IMG/VR virus record: IMGVR_UViG_3300022932_000011
Location: 1 to 38,036 of that record
DNA from: a virus
Direction: 5' to 3' (one strand)
DNA: 38,036 bases
Shown: piece after piece, positions 5,763 through 35,752 of the stretch
How positions within the stretch are numbered: position 1 is the first letter of the stretch
How the letters are laid out: the number at the start of each line of letters is the position of its first letter
Translations under genes and position numbers: made by a program
Notes under the pieces: model-generated
The model's database searches: none
What the model was told of the DNA's origin: nothing
Seen by the model: the letters and a program-made list of their open reading frames with translations, nothing else

Positions 5763-7007
5763 ATGGCTCTAGATTTAGATAGTTTTGATGCGGCACTTAA
5801 AACGCACTATACCAATGACCGCGTAGTTGATATGACTTATGACCAACATCCATTACTTGCGATGTTACCAAAGATGTCAGATTTCACCGGACGTGATCTT
5901 GTAATTCCAGTTCTTCGTGGTAATCCACAAAATCGTTCGATTGAGTTTTCAGTAGCACAAGCTGGTGTTTCAACTTCAGAAGTTGATGCATTCACCATTA
6001 AACGTGTTCACGACTACTCACTCGCAGTAATCGATAACGAAGCTATGTTAGCTTCTAAAGGTAATCCAGGAGCATTTCTTGATGCAACTACTACCGAAAT
6101 CGACGGTGCAATCAACTCACTTTCACGCTCACTTGCTACCAAGCTTTACAAAGATGGTTTCGGCTGGGTCGGTCGTGTAGCTGGTGCAGTTACTGGTGAT
6201 ACTCTAACACTTGAATCAGCTGACTCTGTCACTGCATTCGAAGTTGGACAAGTTATTCAGTTCGCTGCTCTTCCAGGTTCAGGCGCACTTAAAGACGGTG
6301 GCGATAAGCTTACTGTAGTTGGTGTTGACCGTTCATTAGGCAAACTCAAGGTCAGTCCTAATTTAGAAAACATCGCAGGTATCGCTGTTGGCGATTACAT
6401 CTTCTTCGAAGGTGACCGTGATAATCTTTCCTCACCACGTCGTAAGGCGATTGCTGGTCTTGATGCATGGATGCCTTACGGTGGTCCATCAGCATCACTC
6501 TTCTTCGGTGTTGATCGTACTGTTGATACTCGTCTATCTGGTCTCTGGATGGATGGTACTAACATGCCAGTTGAAGAAGCACTTATCAAGGCTGCATCAC
6601 TTGTTTCACGCGAAGGCGGAAACGTTGATTATGCTTTCATGAGCTTCTCACAATTCGCACAACTTGAAATCGCTCTTGGTGCATCAGTAATGCGTACCAA
6701 TCTAAAGGTTGGCGAAATTGGTTTCTCAAGCCTCCGTGTAAACGGACCAAAAGGTGAAATCAAAGTCGTAGCTGATCAAGATTGTCCAGAAGATGATTGC
6801 TTCATGTTAACCATGAAGACTTGGAAGCTTTACTCACTCGGTGGTAAACCAATCCGTAACATCGGCGAGACTGATGGTAATGGCAGAATGCTACGTAAAT
6901 CAAATGCAGATGCAGTCGAAGTTCGCTACGGCTACTATGCACAACTTGGTTGTTCAGCTCCTGGTCACAACATCCGCATCAAATTAGCCAAGCCAGTAGG
7001 CTTCTAA
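5763..7007 (+). CDS. Major capsid protein
   Basis: A 414-residue protein in the capsid slot directly after the scaffold. The N-terminal MALDLDSFDAALKTHYT and the RDLVIPVLRGNPQNRS stretch resemble the N-arm and spine-helix region of capsid proteins in podoviruses with the HK97 fold. A mid-protein insertion rich in Gly, Asp and Val (about residues 140-220: VGDYIFFEGDRDN) looks like a surface domain. Codon use is cleaner and more biased to C-ending codons (TTC, ACC, GAC) than in its neighbours, as expected for the most highly expressed virion gene. Confidence 0.88.
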   Translation: MALDLDSFDAALKTHYTNDRVVDMTYDQHPLLAMLPKMSDFTGRDLVIPVLRGNPQNRSIEFSVAQAGVSTSEVDAFTIKRVHDYSLAVIDNEAMLASKGNPGAFLDATTTEIDGAINSLSRSLATKLYKDGFGWVGRVAGAVTGDTLTLESADSVTAFEVGQVIQFAALPGSGALKDGGDKLTVVGVDRSLGKLKVSPNLENIAGIAVGDYIFFEGDRDNLSSPRRKAIAGLDAWMPYGGPSASLFFGVDRTVDTRLSGLWMDGTNMPVEEALIKAASLVSREGGNVDYAFMSFSQFAQLEIALGASVMRTNLKVGEIGFSSLRVNGPKGEIKVVADQDCPEDDCFMLTMKTWKLYSLGGKPIRNIGETDGNGRMLRKSNADAVEVRYGYYAQLGCSAPGHNIRIKLAKPVGF

Positions 7008-25273: not shown

Positions 25274-27112
25274 ATGTTTATTAATGCTGCGCAACACATG
25301 GCGCCTAAAAAACCAACTCAAATCGCACTTCCGACGTATATCAAAGGAACAAATGTTAGTTCCATGACTACGTATTACGCTACTCAATTTCCTCCTAAAT
25401 ATTATCCAGAAGATTCAGGTAGCAATACATTTCCGATTAAACAAGCAGACGTAGATTACATCGCATCAAAAGGATTTAATTTCGTAAGATTATTGTTTAG
25501 TCATGAAATCATTCAACCTAATGGAGCTTTCACTGATTTTGATACCAAAGCAATAGGCTATCTAAAAGATCAAGTTGATATGTTTATGGCTAAAGGCAAT
25601 ATCCATGTTAGTTTAGCTGTTCACGCTGGAGATGATCCTGGTTTCGGAAAATACTATGGAAATACGTTTGTTAAAGGTGGAACTGTAAGTCCTGGAGCTG
25701 TACGTGCTGACTTCTATCGTCGTTTAGCTGAAATCTTTCGTAGTTATGATCGTTTGCATTGGAGTTTTGATAACGAGCCACAAGGTCAAAATATCAATAT
25801 CTTTTCCTGGATGCAGGAATGTATTAACGCCGTTGCTCATATCCACGGAGGTAAACACTTTATCAATGGTGGCTATTTCTCTGGTGGCGTTAGCTGGACG
25901 AATTCCGGCAGCGACCAAGGATCTCCTAAAATTTCTAATGCCACAGCGGCATTGACATTGACACATCCTTATGGAATAGATAATTTAATTTTCTGTACAC
26001 ATAATTACGCAAACTCCGCAGCTGGTGGTGGATCTACTGTTGTACCAACTACGACTGTATTAAAAGATGAAGCACAAGGCTTTTATCAATGGCTGGTTGA
26101 TAACAATAGATATGGCATTATCGAAGAATGGGGCGTACAACAATCGTCTACTAACGCCGTTGCTTGTTCACAAGATTTTATCAACTGGGTGAAATCAGTA
26201 TCTGTGACATTAGGCGGCAGATTATATGGTCAAGTTTGGTGGACATATGGACGTCCGATTGCATGGTCAGGATATCAATATACTCTTGCTCCAACTTCTA
26301 TGACATATGTAACTGATTCTGCTCAAATGACTATGATAACAAGTCAAGGTTATTTCACAGATCCAGTGGCGTTCGATCCTCTTACAGCTGTTCCTGGTAT
26401 TTATGCCAGACACCGTGCATCAGATTATAACGTTGGAACATCTACATTAGCTAACTCCGCAGGTGTTGGTGATTCAACTCGTAATATGGTTCTTGCAACT
26501 GGTGGTAACTTCGTAGCAGCGGACTTTTCAACATCTGATTCTGATTTCAATGGTCTTGCCAGTATTGGATCTACATCAGTTACTGGTGGTCGAAATGTTG
26601 GTTTGGTTAATGCCGGAGGTGCTAATTTAACAACAGCTATTTCTGGAGCATGTACTGTTTATGGTGTTTATTTCATCAATGCTGCACCTACACCTTCCAG
26701 TGCTTATCTTCGAAGCAATAGAACTATTCTTGCTGGTGGTTCTACAACCGCGCTGCTCGTAAACAGTCCTGGTTTGTATTACTTCTATAGCTATCAATCT
26801 ACACGAGATAACGTCAGCGTTGTAGGCGGTTCTACAGGAGCTTCTGGAGTTGGAACTGTTATTGGTGTTAAGATTATCTGTACAGTTTTAAACGGCGCCT
26901 CAAGCGCAACTTATGTTAATTCCAATACAGCATTGTCAACCGGTAATGCCGGAACAGCTTCGATTACCAGTCTTGGTTATGGAAATCCAAACGGACAAGC
27001 GGCTGTTTGGAGAATGAGTCAAACCTTGATTTATTCCGCAGCTCATACCACAGGTGAACGTACCAGCGTAATGAATTACCTTGGTCAATTATATGGAATA
27101 ACTATTGCATAA
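25274..27112 (+). CDS. Tailspike with GH5-like glycoside hydrolase and C-terminal lectin-like domain
   Basis: A 612-residue protein. Residues about 20-340 show the (beta/alpha)8 GH5 (cellulase-type) signature: VRLLFSHE with the conserved Arg (R72), WSFDNEPQ with acid/base E168 in the NEP motif, THNYANS with H243 and Y245, GIIEEWGV with nucleophile E285, and VWWTYGRP (W322/W323). All expected catalytic residues are present. Residues about 373-612 (YARHRASDYNVGTST, GDSTR, closing AAHTTGERTSVMNYLGQLYG) form the LamG-like module also seen at 22685. There is no signal peptide, so it acts as a virion enzyme. The likely target is a beta-glucan-type capsule or cellulose. Final gene of the adhesin cluster. 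Confidence 0.8.
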   Translation: MFINAAQHMAPKKPTQIALPTYIKGTNVSSMTTYYATQFPPKYYPEDSGSNTFPIKQADVDYIASKGFNFVRLLFSHEIIQPNGAFTDFDTKAIGYLKDQVDMFMAKGNIHVSLAVHAGDDPGFGKYYGNTFVKGGTVSPGAVRADFYRRLAEIFRSYDRLHWSFDNEPQGQNINIFSWMQECINAVAHIHGGKHFINGGYFSGGVSWTNSGSDQGSPKISNATAALTLTHPYGIDNLIFCTHNYANSAAGGGSTVVPTTTVLKDEAQGFYQWLVDNNRYGIIEEWGVQQSSTNAVACSQDFINWVKSVSVTLGGRLYGQVWWTYGRPIAWSGYQYTLAPTSMTYVTDSAQMTMITSQGYFTDPVAFDPLTAVPGIYARHRASDYNVGTSTLANSAGVGDSTRNMVLATGGNFVAADFSTSDSDFNGLASIGSTSVTGGRNVGLVNAGGANLTTAISGACTVYGVYFINAAPTPSSAYLRSNRTILAGGSTTALLVNSPGLYYFYSYQSTRDNVSVVGGSTGASGVGTVIGVKIICTVLNGASSATYVNSNTALSTGNAGTASITSLGYGNPNGQAAVWRMSQTLIYSAAHTTGERTSVMNYLGQLYGITIA

Positions 27113-28602: not shown

Positions 28603-28911
28603 ATGAAATACAATCAATTAGAAATGCAAATATTAACTGGTGTATTGAAACAATACATCGAAAACGAAGAACTTAAAGCTATGATCTTTGATCTTATTTC
28701 CAGTAGTTATGAAATAGCTCCAATGAAGGTCCGCGTTGAGCGCGTTGATGTTCATGACTATGTTTGTGATAAATTAAGAATAACTCATTCCAAATACGTA
28801 CACAAGATCATAAGATTAAGTCTAAATGATCTTGGTGTTAAGTTAAGAAAGATTGAAGGTTATTATTATTTCCTTGGTTTAAGGAAAAAAGAAATTACTC
28901 AAAATCAATAA
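28603..28911 (+). CDS. Hypothetical protein with winged-helix-like C-terminus
   Basis: A 102-residue protein and the last rightward gene. The N-terminal helix (QLEMQILTGVLKQYIENE) is followed by VHDYVCDKLRITHSKYVHK and LNDLGVKLRKIEGYYYFLGL, which reads as helix-helix-beta wing, as in small winged-helix DNA-binding domains. The ribosome site is weak (AAGAATAGAAAT). Its 3' end overlaps the leftward nuclease gene by 17 bases, tail to tail. It could be a late regulator or a phage-type wHTH; confidence in function is low. Confidence 0.55.
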   Translation: MKYNQLEMQILTGVLKQYIENEELKAMIFDLISSSYEIAPMKVRVERVDVHDYVCDKLRITHSKYVHKIIRLSLNDLGVKLRKIEGYYYFLGLRKKEITQNQ

Positions 28912-29428
28912 CTTTAAATTCTTTTACAGCTGATTTTTTATTTGATAAATCATTAAGTGTCATTAATACATTTTGACGATTATTAAATTTATCAAGCTCT
29001 GTAATCGTCCAGCTTTGTTTATATTGAACTTTTCTTAAAAGACATTCAAACTTATAATATTCTCGATGAGAAAGATGTAATATATTACCGAATTTATATT
29101 TTGCCATAAATTCTTTTGCAATACTATTTGCAGCAATGATAATATAATTTACATGTCCAGCAAATTGAGTATCATCGATTAGCATGAAAAAAGGTATTTC
29201 AAGTTTGTTTGCCATCTTACGATGTACTCTCATTTGTTTTGTATTAAGATCCAGTGTAGACTTATTAAGCTCATTGGAGTGTTTGATTTCCAACATAGCT
29301 ATTGCGTCTTCTGAATTATAATCATATAGATAAAAATCTACGTCTTGCATTGCACAATTTCCTGGTAATTTTCGATGTAAAACTGAAACACTGTTATCGC
29401 GAATTGTTGTTTTTTCGTATGATGCCAT
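28895..29428 (-). CDS. PD-(D/E)XK-like nuclease (probable)
   Basis: A 177-residue protein. QDVDFYLYD (28-36, D29/D31), AMLEIKHS (44-51, E47-x-K49) and Q65 in NTKQMRVHRKMANKLEIPFF follow the restriction-endonuclease-like fold, in which D, E-x-K and a downstream Gln form the metal site. It may act as a junction resolvase, VRR-type nuclease or host-DNA nuclease. It lies downstream of a leftward terminator (29513-29540), so it needs its own promoter; a TATAAT box is present at 29468-29473. No clear Shine-Dalgarno precedes the ATG. Converges with and overlaps the 28603 gene. Confidence 0.65.
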   Translation of the reverse strand: MASYEKTTIRDNSVSVLHRKLPGNCAMQDVDFYLYDYNSEDAIAMLEIKHSNELNKSTLDLNTKQMRVHRKMANKLEIPFFMLIDDTQFAGHVNYIIIAANSIAKEFMAKYKFGNILHLSHREYYKFECLLRKVQYKQSWTITELDKFNNRQNVLMTLNDLSNKKSAVKEFKVIDFE

Positions 29429-32985: not shown

Positions 32986-33453
32986 TCAAGCAAAGTTAGC
33001 TAATCTTTTGTATTTTTCAATTAATTTTTTGAATTCTGATTTAGTTATAAATTCATCTTTTGTATTTTGAAATCTAATTATTGTTGATCGATTTTCTGGT
33101 GTGTCAATGGCACAAACTTTCCATTTTATTTTTAAAATATCAAACAATATTATTGATCCTTCGGAAGGATAATTATCTACTGATACTTTATAACCAAGAC
33201 CATCTACATATTCTTTAAATAAAATATGAGCTGGTAAATATTTATGAGCAGCTTCTCCACTCCATCTAAAACCTTTATCTAAAATTTCATAATCAACTTC
33301 TTTGAAATTTGGATAATTTGTTTTGAAAGCATCATGATCTTTGCAGTTAGCACAAACTGCCATACCTTCATAGTCAGCTGGAACATCTTCATTTGGCATA
33401 TGATATCCAACTATTTTATATTCTCCGCACATTTTACAAGCACTTAATTCCAT
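32986..33453 (-). CDS. Zinc-ribbon protein downstream of the helicase
   Basis: A 155-residue protein. Cys pairs CKMC (6-9) and CANC (34-37) form a four-Cys zinc ribbon at the N-terminus. The rest is mixed alpha/beta with a C-terminal basic helix (FITKSEFKKLIEKYKRLANF). The start shares one base with the helicase stop (TAATG), and both end at the terminator at 32912-32945, so it is probably a partner of the helicase in DNA replication or recombination. Family not recognised. Confidence 0.65.
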   Translation of the reverse strand: MELSACKMCGEYKIVGYHMPNEDVPADYEGMAVCANCKDHDAFKTNYPNFKEVDYEILDKGFRWSGEAAHKYLPAHILFKEYVDGLGYKVSVDNYPSEGSIILFDILKIKWKVCAIDTPENRSTIIRFQNTKDEFITKSEFKKLIEKYKRLANFA

Positions 33454-34820
33454 TATTTATCTCCTAAATTTTTTAAATACACAGTTCCTTTATTTGTGTG
33501 TTTGCTAAACCATCCTAATGAAACCATTATTTGGCTCACCTTCTGTGGATACACCTTGGTTTTTGGATCATAGCCTTGTGCTATGGAATTTGCATCTAGT
33601 CCAGAAATTCTTCCAAGCTCATTATAATCTTCTAATTTAGAAATCATCCAATCAGTCAATGGATCTGATTCCATAAATTGTTCATTTGAAATATTAAGCA
33701 TTTCACTTTCTTCTTCATTTAGAAAGTGACTTTCACCAGATTCGTATGCTTGAACAGCTTCTGACCAAAGTGCTTCTTTAATTTCTTTTAATTTATCAAG
33801 ATCTACTTTTTGATTTCTTTCAACTTCAACACACCAAAATCTACGATTGCCTGTTTTATCAACAAGGATATTCATGTTATTTGAGGTTCCGCCAAATACC
33901 ATCATGCGAGGAACATTAACAGAATCATTTTCAAATTTAGGAACATAAGTATCAACTGAATTAGTTAAATAATCTTTAACACTTTCTAATTCATTTTTCT
34001 TAAACGAACTTAATTCACCGAATTCAATAAGAAACTTACCACGAAATGTTTGAGTTGCTTTTTGAATATTATCAAGATCAACTTTACCAGAAATATAATA
34101 TTCAGGTTTAGGATTTAATATTTTAAAGAAGCTGGTCTTTCCTGCGCCTTGATCTCCGCAAAAGATCAATGCACTATGAACTTCAGTTCCTGGTACCATT
34201 GCACGAGCAACGGCACTGATAAGCCATTTACGACCAAGAATACGATTGATTGGCGTATCCTTTACCTTACAGATATCAACCAAATAATTATTTAAATAAT
34301 CAGTTTTGCATTTTGGTAATTTTGTAAAATAATCTTTCAATGGATTAAATTCATTTTGTAAAGCAACATGATTAACAACTCGTTTAAGAATATCGTTATT
34401 TATACTTCCACCAAGATAAAAATTATTCATTGCGATTTCAATATCACCACGTAATTTAGTGCTTAATGGTTTGGAATCAATATAAATACGACCATCAAAA
34501 ATGGAATAAGCTAATTTTGGAAATAAGTGTTTCATTACTAAAACATAGTTATTGAAATTAGGTATTAAAGTTATAGTGTTTTCTTTTTTAAAGAAACGCA
34601 TCGCCTCATCATAATAACCATATTTACGGATGCAATTTTCTTTTAATTCGTTTTTAACATTTTCTTTCTTTTGATTAATATTAAAAACCTTGGCTGCTGC
34701 TTCTTTTTCAGCAGCAATAACTTCTGGACTGTCTGGAATATAATAAACCTCTGAATCATCAGAATCGTTTAAGTAGTCAGAAAAATTGAGAATATCTGTA
34801 TCATTACATTTGTTGTGCAT
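33453..34820 (-). CDS. VapE/VirE-type replicative helicase (P-loop NTPase)
   Basis: A 455-residue protein. I take ATG 34820 (after AAGGAAATTTATA) rather than the in-frame GTG at 34874. The virulence-associated E ATPase domain is clear: Walker A GDQGAGKT (222-229), Walker B-like FLIEFGEL (263-270), GGTSNN (310-315) and the arginine-bearing GNRRFWCVEV (324-333). The C-terminal 60 residues (MISKLEDYNELGRISGL onward, ending GTVYLKNLGDK) look like a winged helix that could bind DNA. No primase motif is seen in the N-terminal part. It sits next to the iteron array, a layout like that of SaPI Rep initiator-helicases, so self-initiation at the array is a testable idea. Confidence 0.85.
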   Translation of the reverse strand: MHNKCNDTDILNFSDYLNDSDDSEVYYIPDSPEVIAAEKEAAAKVFNINQKKENVKNELKENCIRKYGYYDEAMRFFKKENTITLIPNFNNYVLVMKHLFPKLAYSIFDGRIYIDSKPLSTKLRGDIEIAMNNFYLGGSINNDILKRVVNHVALQNEFNPLKDYFTKLPKCKTDYLNNYLVDICKVKDTPINRILGRKWLISAVARAMVPGTEVHSALIFCGDQGAGKTSFFKILNPKPEYYISGKVDLDNIQKATQTFRGKFLIEFGELSSFKKNELESVKDYLTNSVDTYVPKFENDSVNVPRMMVFGGTSNNMNILVDKTGNRRFWCVEVERNQKVDLDKLKEIKEALWSEAVQAYESGESHFLNEEESEMLNISNEQFMESDPLTDWMISKLEDYNELGRISGLDANSIAQGYDPKTKVYPQKVSQIMVSLGWFSKHTNKGTVYLKNLGDK

Positions 34821-34878
34821 TATAAATTTCCTTGTTGAAGAATAAAGAACTTCGTTGTGTGACCAGCTCTTCACAATA

Positions 34879-34906: not shown

Positions 34907-34920
34907 ATAAAAATGAAAAT

Positions 34921-35057
34921 AAAAAACTGCTGGCTCAAACGTACGCACAACCATACTCGCCAGCAGTTTTACATTCTTCTTCAACAGACACAACAATCTC
35001 ACGATTGTATTACTTATATACCGCGAAATGCCTAACTTTATTATATTTTTTAATGTT
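34921..35057 (-). ncRNA. Possible short RNA from the array edge
   Basis: A minus-strand TATAAT (35069-35064) touches the first iteron, and the strong terminator lies about 135 bases downstream. Between them is no supported gene but a 6-bp hairpin with a four-base loop (ACAATC-TCAC-GATTGT, 34993-35008). A short transcript here could act as a replication primer or regulator. No good -35 is visible, so this is tentative. Confidence 0.3.
34923..34970 (-). terminator. Strong terminator beside the repeat array
   Basis: AAAACTGCTGGC (34923-34934) pairs with GCCAGCAGTTTT (34959-34970): a perfect 12-bp stem with a 24-base loop. On the minus strand it ends in TTTTTT. It shields the helicase promoter from leftward transcription out of the array, and can also stop rightward transcripts (GTTTTAC). 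Confidence 0.75.
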
Positions 35058-35072
35058 TCTGGTATTATAAAG

Positions 35073-35360
35073 GTGACAGACAATGGTGCCTCTGTCACTC
35101 CTCTGTCACCTTCTCTGTCACCTCTGATATCCTATGATTTACGATGTATTATTGCAAAAGTGACAGAGTGACAGAGAAAGTATGAAAAAGTTTACCGGCG
35201 CCAAAAGCATTCCTATACCTCTGTTCATCCGCCAGGAAAGATCAAACACCAAATTCTCTGTCACTCTGTCACTTTTTTCTTTAAGTAGCTGTTTTTATTG
35301 AAGAATGTCGGTGACAGAGAAGGTGACAGACACCTGTTTTCTCTGTCACTAGTGACAGAG
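35073..35360. repeat. Dyad-symmetric iteron array, candidate replication origin
   Basis: Twelve exact copies of GTGACAGA: forward at 35073, 35160, 35168, 35311, 35323, 35352; reverse (TCTGTCAC) at 35091, 35102, 35114, 35257, 35265, 35342. Eight lie in two nested inverted repeats with the same centre, 35216: an outer pair of 22-base arms (35101-35122 / 35310-35331, one mismatch) and an inner pair of perfect 23-base arms (35156-35178 / 35254-35276), 33 bases apart on each side. A perfect 20-bp palindrome, CTCTGTCACTAGTGACAGAG, lies at 35341-35360. The region has no gene and divides the two transcription arms. Iteron-type origin and operator are the main readings. Confidence 0.85.
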
Positions 35361-35380: not shown

Positions 35381-35752
35381 ATGCACTATCTCTATGTTAT
35401 CAGAAATTCTTTAAACGGAAAGATGTATATTGGTAAATCTATTAATCCAATAAAACGATTAAAACAACACCTCGCGGACAAATCCTCTAAACGCCTTGCT
35501 AAAGCGATTCGAGCTGACGGTAAGGATAAGTTCCAGCTATACGTCATCGCAGAGTTTAAAACTGATTTAGAGGTATCTGTGGCTGAACTGTTGTTCATTG
35601 ACCAGCTCGGTACAGACGATCCAGATCTAGGTTACAACGGTTTAACAAACTGGAAATATATTTCTAAAGAAATAAGAAAACAATATAGAAAAAAGAAATA
35701 TGAATTATCAAAATCACCTTCAGAGATATTAGAGATATTACCTATATTATGA
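35381..35752 (+). CDS. GIY-YIG nuclease
   Basis: A 123-residue protein consisting of one GIY-YIG domain: LYV (4-6), YIG (16-18), catalytic-type R26, H30 (RLKQH), E69 in SVAELLFID and N86 in LGYNGL. A lysine-rich C-terminal helix (KEIRKQYRKKKYELSK) can bind DNA. It starts 21 bases after the 20-bp palindrome of the array, with a TTGAGG ribosome site, so array-bound protein could repress it. It may be a free-standing homing-type nuclease or have a role at the origin; no separate targeting domain is visible. Confidence 0.85.
   Translation: MHYLYVIRNSLNGKMYIGKSINPIKRLKQHLADKSSKRLAKAIRADGKDKFQLYVIAEFKTDLEVSVAELLFIDQLGTDDPDLGYNGLTNWKYISKEIRKQYRKKKYELSKSPSEILEILPIL

Follow-up and report, generated by a model that had tools for sequence, protein, structure and literature searches.

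A compact iteron array with exact two-fold symmetry as a probable SaPI/PICI/P4-type replication origin in a tailed-phage genome

The array of 12 short iterons lying between divergently oriented helicase and GIY-YIG endonuclease genes of this phage is very probably the replication origin for the phage's own VapE-type self-loading helicase, as judged from the sequence and from a model of the helicase fold, and by analogy it is most likely an origin of the SaPI/PICI/P4 type. On this reading the layout is not new, contrary to what had been supposed from the letters of the DNA: inverted iterons beside the gene of a self-loading helicase are the known PICI/SaPI arrangement, and near-exact dyads are present in other VapE-helicase phages. 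The array is distinguished from the known kind by its compact and exactly two-fold form, its position upstream of the helicase gene and a spacer that is not AT-rich. The compact exact form and the upstream position, together with a spacing rule common with P4 for which priority is not claimed, are the points of interest.

Copies, layout and symmetry of the array

The window, that is, the whole stretch of DNA analysed, comprises the 38,036 bases of a virus record, and its 127-bp terminal repeat gives a circular map of 37,909 bp. The count of GTGACAGA showed 12 exact copies at 35073-35359 and just one more exact copy in the 38-kb window, at position 6225. No convincing gene was found within the array, in agreement with the sequence-only reading, which had described 12 copies in less than 290 bp without a gene. 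The iterons follow the orientation order +---++--++-+ and form two inverted sets, which begin about 250 bp away from the start codon of the helicase gene. As also proposed in that reading, the array sits where transcription diverges, with the helicase gene on the minus strand and the GIY-YIG gene on the plus strand. The coordinates of the features are given in Table 1. An ORF of about 39 codons (35183-35302, plus strand), which spans the dyad centre and has a purine-rich stretch before its ATG, probably arose by chance. Rfam matches over the array were rejected; their scores were below the gathering cutoff and they reflect the inverted repeats of the array.

Table 1. Coordinates of the array, its component iterons and the flanking features in the window.
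Feature	Position	Strand	Remarks
VapE-type SF3/AAA+ helicase gene, likely initiator	33453-34820	-	C-terminal winged helix, residues 387-455
Intrinsic-terminator-like hairpin	34918-34975	-	12-bp perfect stem, U-run; between array and helicase gene; z -5.3
Iteron array, candidate replication origin	35073-35359		12 exact GTGACAGA
Outermost left iteron	35073-35080	+	35352-35359 mirrors its position, not its orientation
Extra left iteron	35091-35098	-	Outside the exact dyad
Left flanking iteron pair	35102-35121	-	Inverted relative to inner pair; 12-bp spacing; lies 38 bp further out, in outer arm 35102-35122
Left inner tandem iteron pair	35160-35175	+	8-bp spacing; within 23-bp inner arm 35156-35178
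Central spacer between the two half-origins	35176-35256		58% AT, not AT-rich for the genome
Right inner tandem iteron pair	35257-35272	-	8-bp spacing; within 23-bp inner arm 35254-35276
Right flanking iteron pair	35311-35330	+	Inverted relative to inner pair; 12-bp spacing; lies 38 bp further out, in outer arm 35310-35330
Right outer iterons, 35342-35349 (-) and 35352-35359 (+)	35342-35359		Short palindrome outside the exact dyad
Small GIY-YIG endonuclease gene	35381-35752	+	Start codon 21 bp from last iteron

Eight of the copies had been assigned to an exact dyad at position 35216, and the coordinates bear this out, every mirrored pair summing to 70432. The inner arms are complementary at 23 of 23 positions, as described before. 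The outer arms, which had been given as 22 bp long, are perfect over 21 bp and differ by one terminal mismatch. The gaps between inner and outer arms measure 33 bp on both sides, corresponding to 38 bp when counted between iterons; they are equal in length and differ in sequence as claimed, with 10 of 33 positions matching against 8.9 ± 2.4 expected. The copies at 35091 and 35342 lie off the dyad. A sum of 70432 is reached by the outermost copies as well (35073-35080 and 35352-35359), but these have the same orientation and were therefore excluded.

The symmetry of the array is real and beyond chance. When the inter-site distances were shuffled 100,000 times with the orientations kept, 57 of the shuffles gave at least four mirrored pairs (p about 0.0006-0.001), as did 11 of 100,000 random placements (p ~0.0001). 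We propose that the dyad is exact because one module of constrained spacing is present in the array twice, in inverted orientation. The AT content is 58% in the central spacer, 63% in the genome, 71-74% in the 38-bp gaps and 74% in the left flank.

The neighbouring helicase and the origin reading

The ATG at 34820, preceded by a good ribosome-binding site, is the likely start of the helicase gene, the GTG at 34874 being less likely. The protein matched PF05272 (VapE-like, E 8.7e-58) and PHROG 256 ('DNA helicase'), and in its 473-aa form PF05272 and DUF5906 were the sole Pfam domains. No primase domain was found in the helicase by Pfam, indicating that host or other phage factors must prime. 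Its only clear sequence relative in the PDB was 7pds (E 2.9e-27). An AlphaFold model of the helicase, for which 25 sequences were used (pLDDT 82), ends in helix-helix-helix-strand-strand, the winged-helix arrangement, and its best structural match was again 7pds, 'PriRep1 with dsDNA' of SaPI1 (Foldseek E 1e-22). The comparison of 7pds_F with the model gave Z 30.2 over residues 67-455 (374 aligned, rmsd 3.5 Å), the next match having Z 15. The protein is a VapE-like AAA+/SF3 helicase, and the likely initiator, by PF05272 and 7pds; its model shows the SaPI Rep fold with the C-terminal winged-helix DNA-binding domain, and by this modelled fold the helicase belongs to the SaPI Rep family.

In SaPI origins, oppositely oriented repeats direct two head-to-head hexamers (PMC9894130), and two sets of iterons are a constant feature of PICI origins (PMC6092414). 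In the phage analysed here, the C-terminal domains of the helicase would bind the iterons and each half of the array would nucleate one hexamer, the two convergent modules yielding two hexamers that face each other over the spacer of about 80 bp. The duplex may be opened between the hexamers in the spacer, or in the AT-rich flanks, and the two helicases could then set up divergent forks with host primase and polymerase. An origin with two facing helicase rings had been suggested from the sequence, and this suggestion is well supported by comparison, through the fold and the published SaPI Rep model.

Counted against the origin reading are the spacer that is not AT-rich, the position of the array upstream of the helicase gene and the course of the GC skew. 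A cumulative GC-skew plot had been named as a check of the origin and did not agree with it: its extrema fell at 30.1 kb (maximum) and 37.5 kb (minimum), none of them near 35.2 kb. The cumulative skew follows gene orientation. That the skew does not point to 35.2 kb would suit a true origin at another place in the genome, the array then serving for incompatibility or copy control or being a secondary helicase-bound site, and P4 by its annotation requires crr, as a separate locus, in addition to ori1. However, the exact 8-mer occurs just once elsewhere in the window, no second iteron cluster was seen there, and the array already has both half-modules. We regard this explanation as the least probable of those weighed.

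The transcription signals bear on a different alternative, an operator cluster for a transcription regulator of divergent promoters in place of an origin. Such a cluster would fit an array lying between divergent gene blocks, with its last iteron 21 bp from the GIY-YIG start codon and one weak promoter-like site overlapping the left gap. The best promoter-like site for the helicase, however, is at 34906-34879, outside the array and past the terminator-like hairpin, Pfam found no HTH repressor in the neighbouring genes examined, and in other phages the module lies 3' of helicase genes, where it could not be their promoter operator. An operator cluster is unlikely on these grounds, if less so than the other alternatives. 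The hairpin and the promoter-like site both separate the array from the helicase gene and may insulate transcription of that gene, and the array as the helicase's own operator was set aside for the same reason; autoregulation by the helicase at the array may occur on top of the origin function. The succession of hairpin and promoter-like site would also permit a short leader RNA or attenuation.

For the GIY-YIG protein, no extra DNA-binding domain was found by Pfam. Phage ICP1 has an origin-directed nuclease with a domain of the GIY-YIG superfamily (PMC8263062). Elsewhere in the window, the gene at 25274-27112 (plus strand), located beside the structural genes, specifies a glycosyl hydrolase family 5 (cellulase) domain, and its product is possibly a tail-associated enzyme degrading surface polysaccharide. 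At 28895-29428 (minus strand), a phage family of Holliday junction resolvases was matched weakly (PHROG 27407, E 4e-4).

Half-module spacing in other phages

Close relatives of the phage for a direct conservation test were not found by the searches made. The blastn search of the array region against phages gave no matches, scanning viral and genome collections with the helicase as the single query protein gave no relatives, and the strict DNA pattern of the inner dyad gave zero matches. The capsid relatives were mostly without such a helicase, and no comparable array was observed in the stretches examined. A comparable array was likewise absent from the stretches examined of RcSalem, Blf4 and Wrath, which have similar helicases and are the phages most like loci L177 and L176 among the published ones compared; this absence is weak evidence, the stretches of RcSalem and Wrath ending near the record end and Blf4 being circular.

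Many VapE-helicase relatives in viral contigs were found to carry clusters of other 8-mers, in both orientations and 3' of the helicase gene, at a typical distance of 380-650 bp. Four exactly mirrored pairs and 8-bp inner tandem pairs were observed in each of L096 and L120, and three exact mirrored pairs in Marinobacter phage PS3 (L010). Mirrored pairs exceeded the gap-shuffled expectation in 21 other helicase-associated arrays (Fisher p 0.0076 for exact pairs); when 1 bp was tolerated, the Fisher p was 4e-8 and 11 of the 21 arrays were below 0.05. The exact symmetry of the window is at the upper end of what was observed and is not unique (L187, L096, L120).

The DNA search with the GTGACAGA iteron only retrieved L176 and L177, in both of which the array directly follows a helicase gene, of the D5_N type in L176 and of the VapE type with primase in L177. 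The L176 helicase has no similarity to the window helicase detectable by BLAST; L176:1600-2400 carries the iteron core of the window and the half-module spacing on both sides, with gaps of 38 and 37 bp that differ in sequence, a likeness that may be due to common descent or to convergence.

The half-origin module consists of two tandem iterons 8 bp apart and then an inverted iteron after 36-40 bp. The pattern with which the viral and genome collections were scanned joined two tandem cores at 8-bp spacing, 24-54 free bases and an inverted core. The 104 non-redundant matches fell mainly into gap classes of 27-29 bp (24 matches), 36-42 bp (56) and 47-53 bp (15), about one helical turn apart, with few between. 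Since many of the genome matches (Bacteroidetes, Actinobacteria) lie away from helicases, the spacing test was restricted to helicase-associated loci. Outside the window, 16 of 20 helicase-associated modules have a gap of 36-40 bp where 24-54 bp was allowed (binomial p ~5e-10, an optimistic value because a few of the loci share ancestry). Gaps of equal length are mostly unrelated in sequence among these modules, the exception being the related pair L187/L198. The half-to-half distance varies from about 60 to 125 bp among phages and the distances within each half vary far less, suggesting that the half-module is the unit under selection.

A match of this spacing was also observed in P4. With offsets measured from the first G of GTGA, the annotated P4 sites lie at 0/9/47 in crr-a and crr-b and at 0/10/48 in ori1, and those of the window at 0/8/47 on both sides, so that on each side of the array a tandem pair is followed by an inverted iteron at the P4 distance. 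Further offsets in the same coordinates are 75/86/96 in P4 ori1 and 75/85/95 in L187. The recurrence of the half-module spacing in unrelated phages and in P4 strongly supports the earlier claim that position is conserved and not only sequence.

The symmetry might instead be the relic of an inverted duplication, its spacing having no functional meaning, and the iterons could still be origin sites. The arms are perfect over 23 bp (inner) and 21 bp (outer) including some bases outside the iterons, as if copied. The 33-bp gaps, by contrast, are equal in length and unrelated in sequence, the same gap class recurs in other phages and P4, and the two halves of L176 differ in sequence between gaps of 38 and 37 bp. 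A mere relic is accordingly improbable, somewhat more so than the operator cluster and less so than the copy-control locus; it is possible that the second half arose by duplication and that selection then acted on the spacing.

The motif alone is no proof of an origin, since similar GTGACAG spacing occurs in bacterial genomes away from such helicases. Tandem-plus-inverted GTGACAG spacing was observed in repeated, dispersed intergenic elements of Bacteroidetes genomes (L208, L210, L217, L219, L228, L234, L284 and others), mostly away from VapE-type helicases. Actinobacterial GTGACAG arrays (L209, L221, L227, L242, L253, L256, L260, L274 and others), including those of Amycolatopsis, Prauserella and Haloechinothrix, have a gap of 29 bp, about one helical turn shorter. 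Among the neighbours examined at two of these loci are an AAA_25 gene (L209) and a resolvase gene (L227), and the actinobacterial loci are possibly integrative elements with another initiator.

A general rule is put forward tentatively, with confidence a little short of even. Tandem iterons 8-10 bp apart with an inverted iteron 36-40 bp outward would serve phage SF3-type self-loading initiators, and would be common to VapE, D5_N and P4-alpha helicases, whose sequences have little or no similarity; compact origins would be two such modules face to face, and the P4 modules, kilobases apart, would be rejoined by looping. If the present reading of the array is right, the sequence alone would state the size and separation of the two helicase assemblies on the origin, and the placement of self-loading hexamers and the opening of DNA would become a question of spacing. 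Origins of phages and satellites with VapE- or D5-type helicases could also be located by such a DNA signature, and the split P4 origin would be linked to the compact ones.

Comparison with known systems

The origins of SV40 T antigen and papillomavirus E1 resemble the window in having two-fold binding sites for two viral SF3 helicase hexamers, and papillomavirus E1 was among the structural matches of the window helicase. In contrast to the window, DNA is bound there by an N-terminal domain (PMC7581432), the recognition sequence is unrelated and the helicase is far more distant. VapE phages with GTRGGACA iterons (such as Pseudomonas phage Haddon, L096 and L120) are like the window in having both orientations and 8-bp inner tandem pairs, and differ in iteron sequence, in flanking distance and in the location of the array, which lies 3' of a gene for a primase-helicase fusion, several hundred bases away.

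The P4 system (ori1, crr and the alpha primase-helicase) has a closely similar iteron, CTGTTCACC in P4 and CTGTCACC in the window. Its modules are kilobases apart, whereas those of the window face each other across about 80 bp, and P4 alpha combines a primase domain with the helicase, unlike the window helicase with no Pfam primase domain.

The SaPI/PICI Rep-ori systems (SaPI1 PriRep1, 7pds; E. coli PICIs, PMC6092414), the SaPI origins being compared by their published descriptions, share with the window a VapE-like self-loading helicase, with a common fold over residues 67-455, and an adjacent array with two short iteron sets in opposite orientation next to the rep gene, for which a two-hexamer model has been published. 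The SaPI/PICI origin is immediately 3' of rep, whereas the array of the window is 5' of the helicase gene, on its divergent side. In place of the AT-rich region described between the iteron sets of PICIs, the window has a spacer of 58% AT against 63% in the genome, and unlike a satellite without capsid genes it is the genome of a tailed phage, 38 kb long, in which terminase, portal and capsid genes are present. Compared with the SaPI/PICI origins, the two-fold symmetry of the window is exact to the base.
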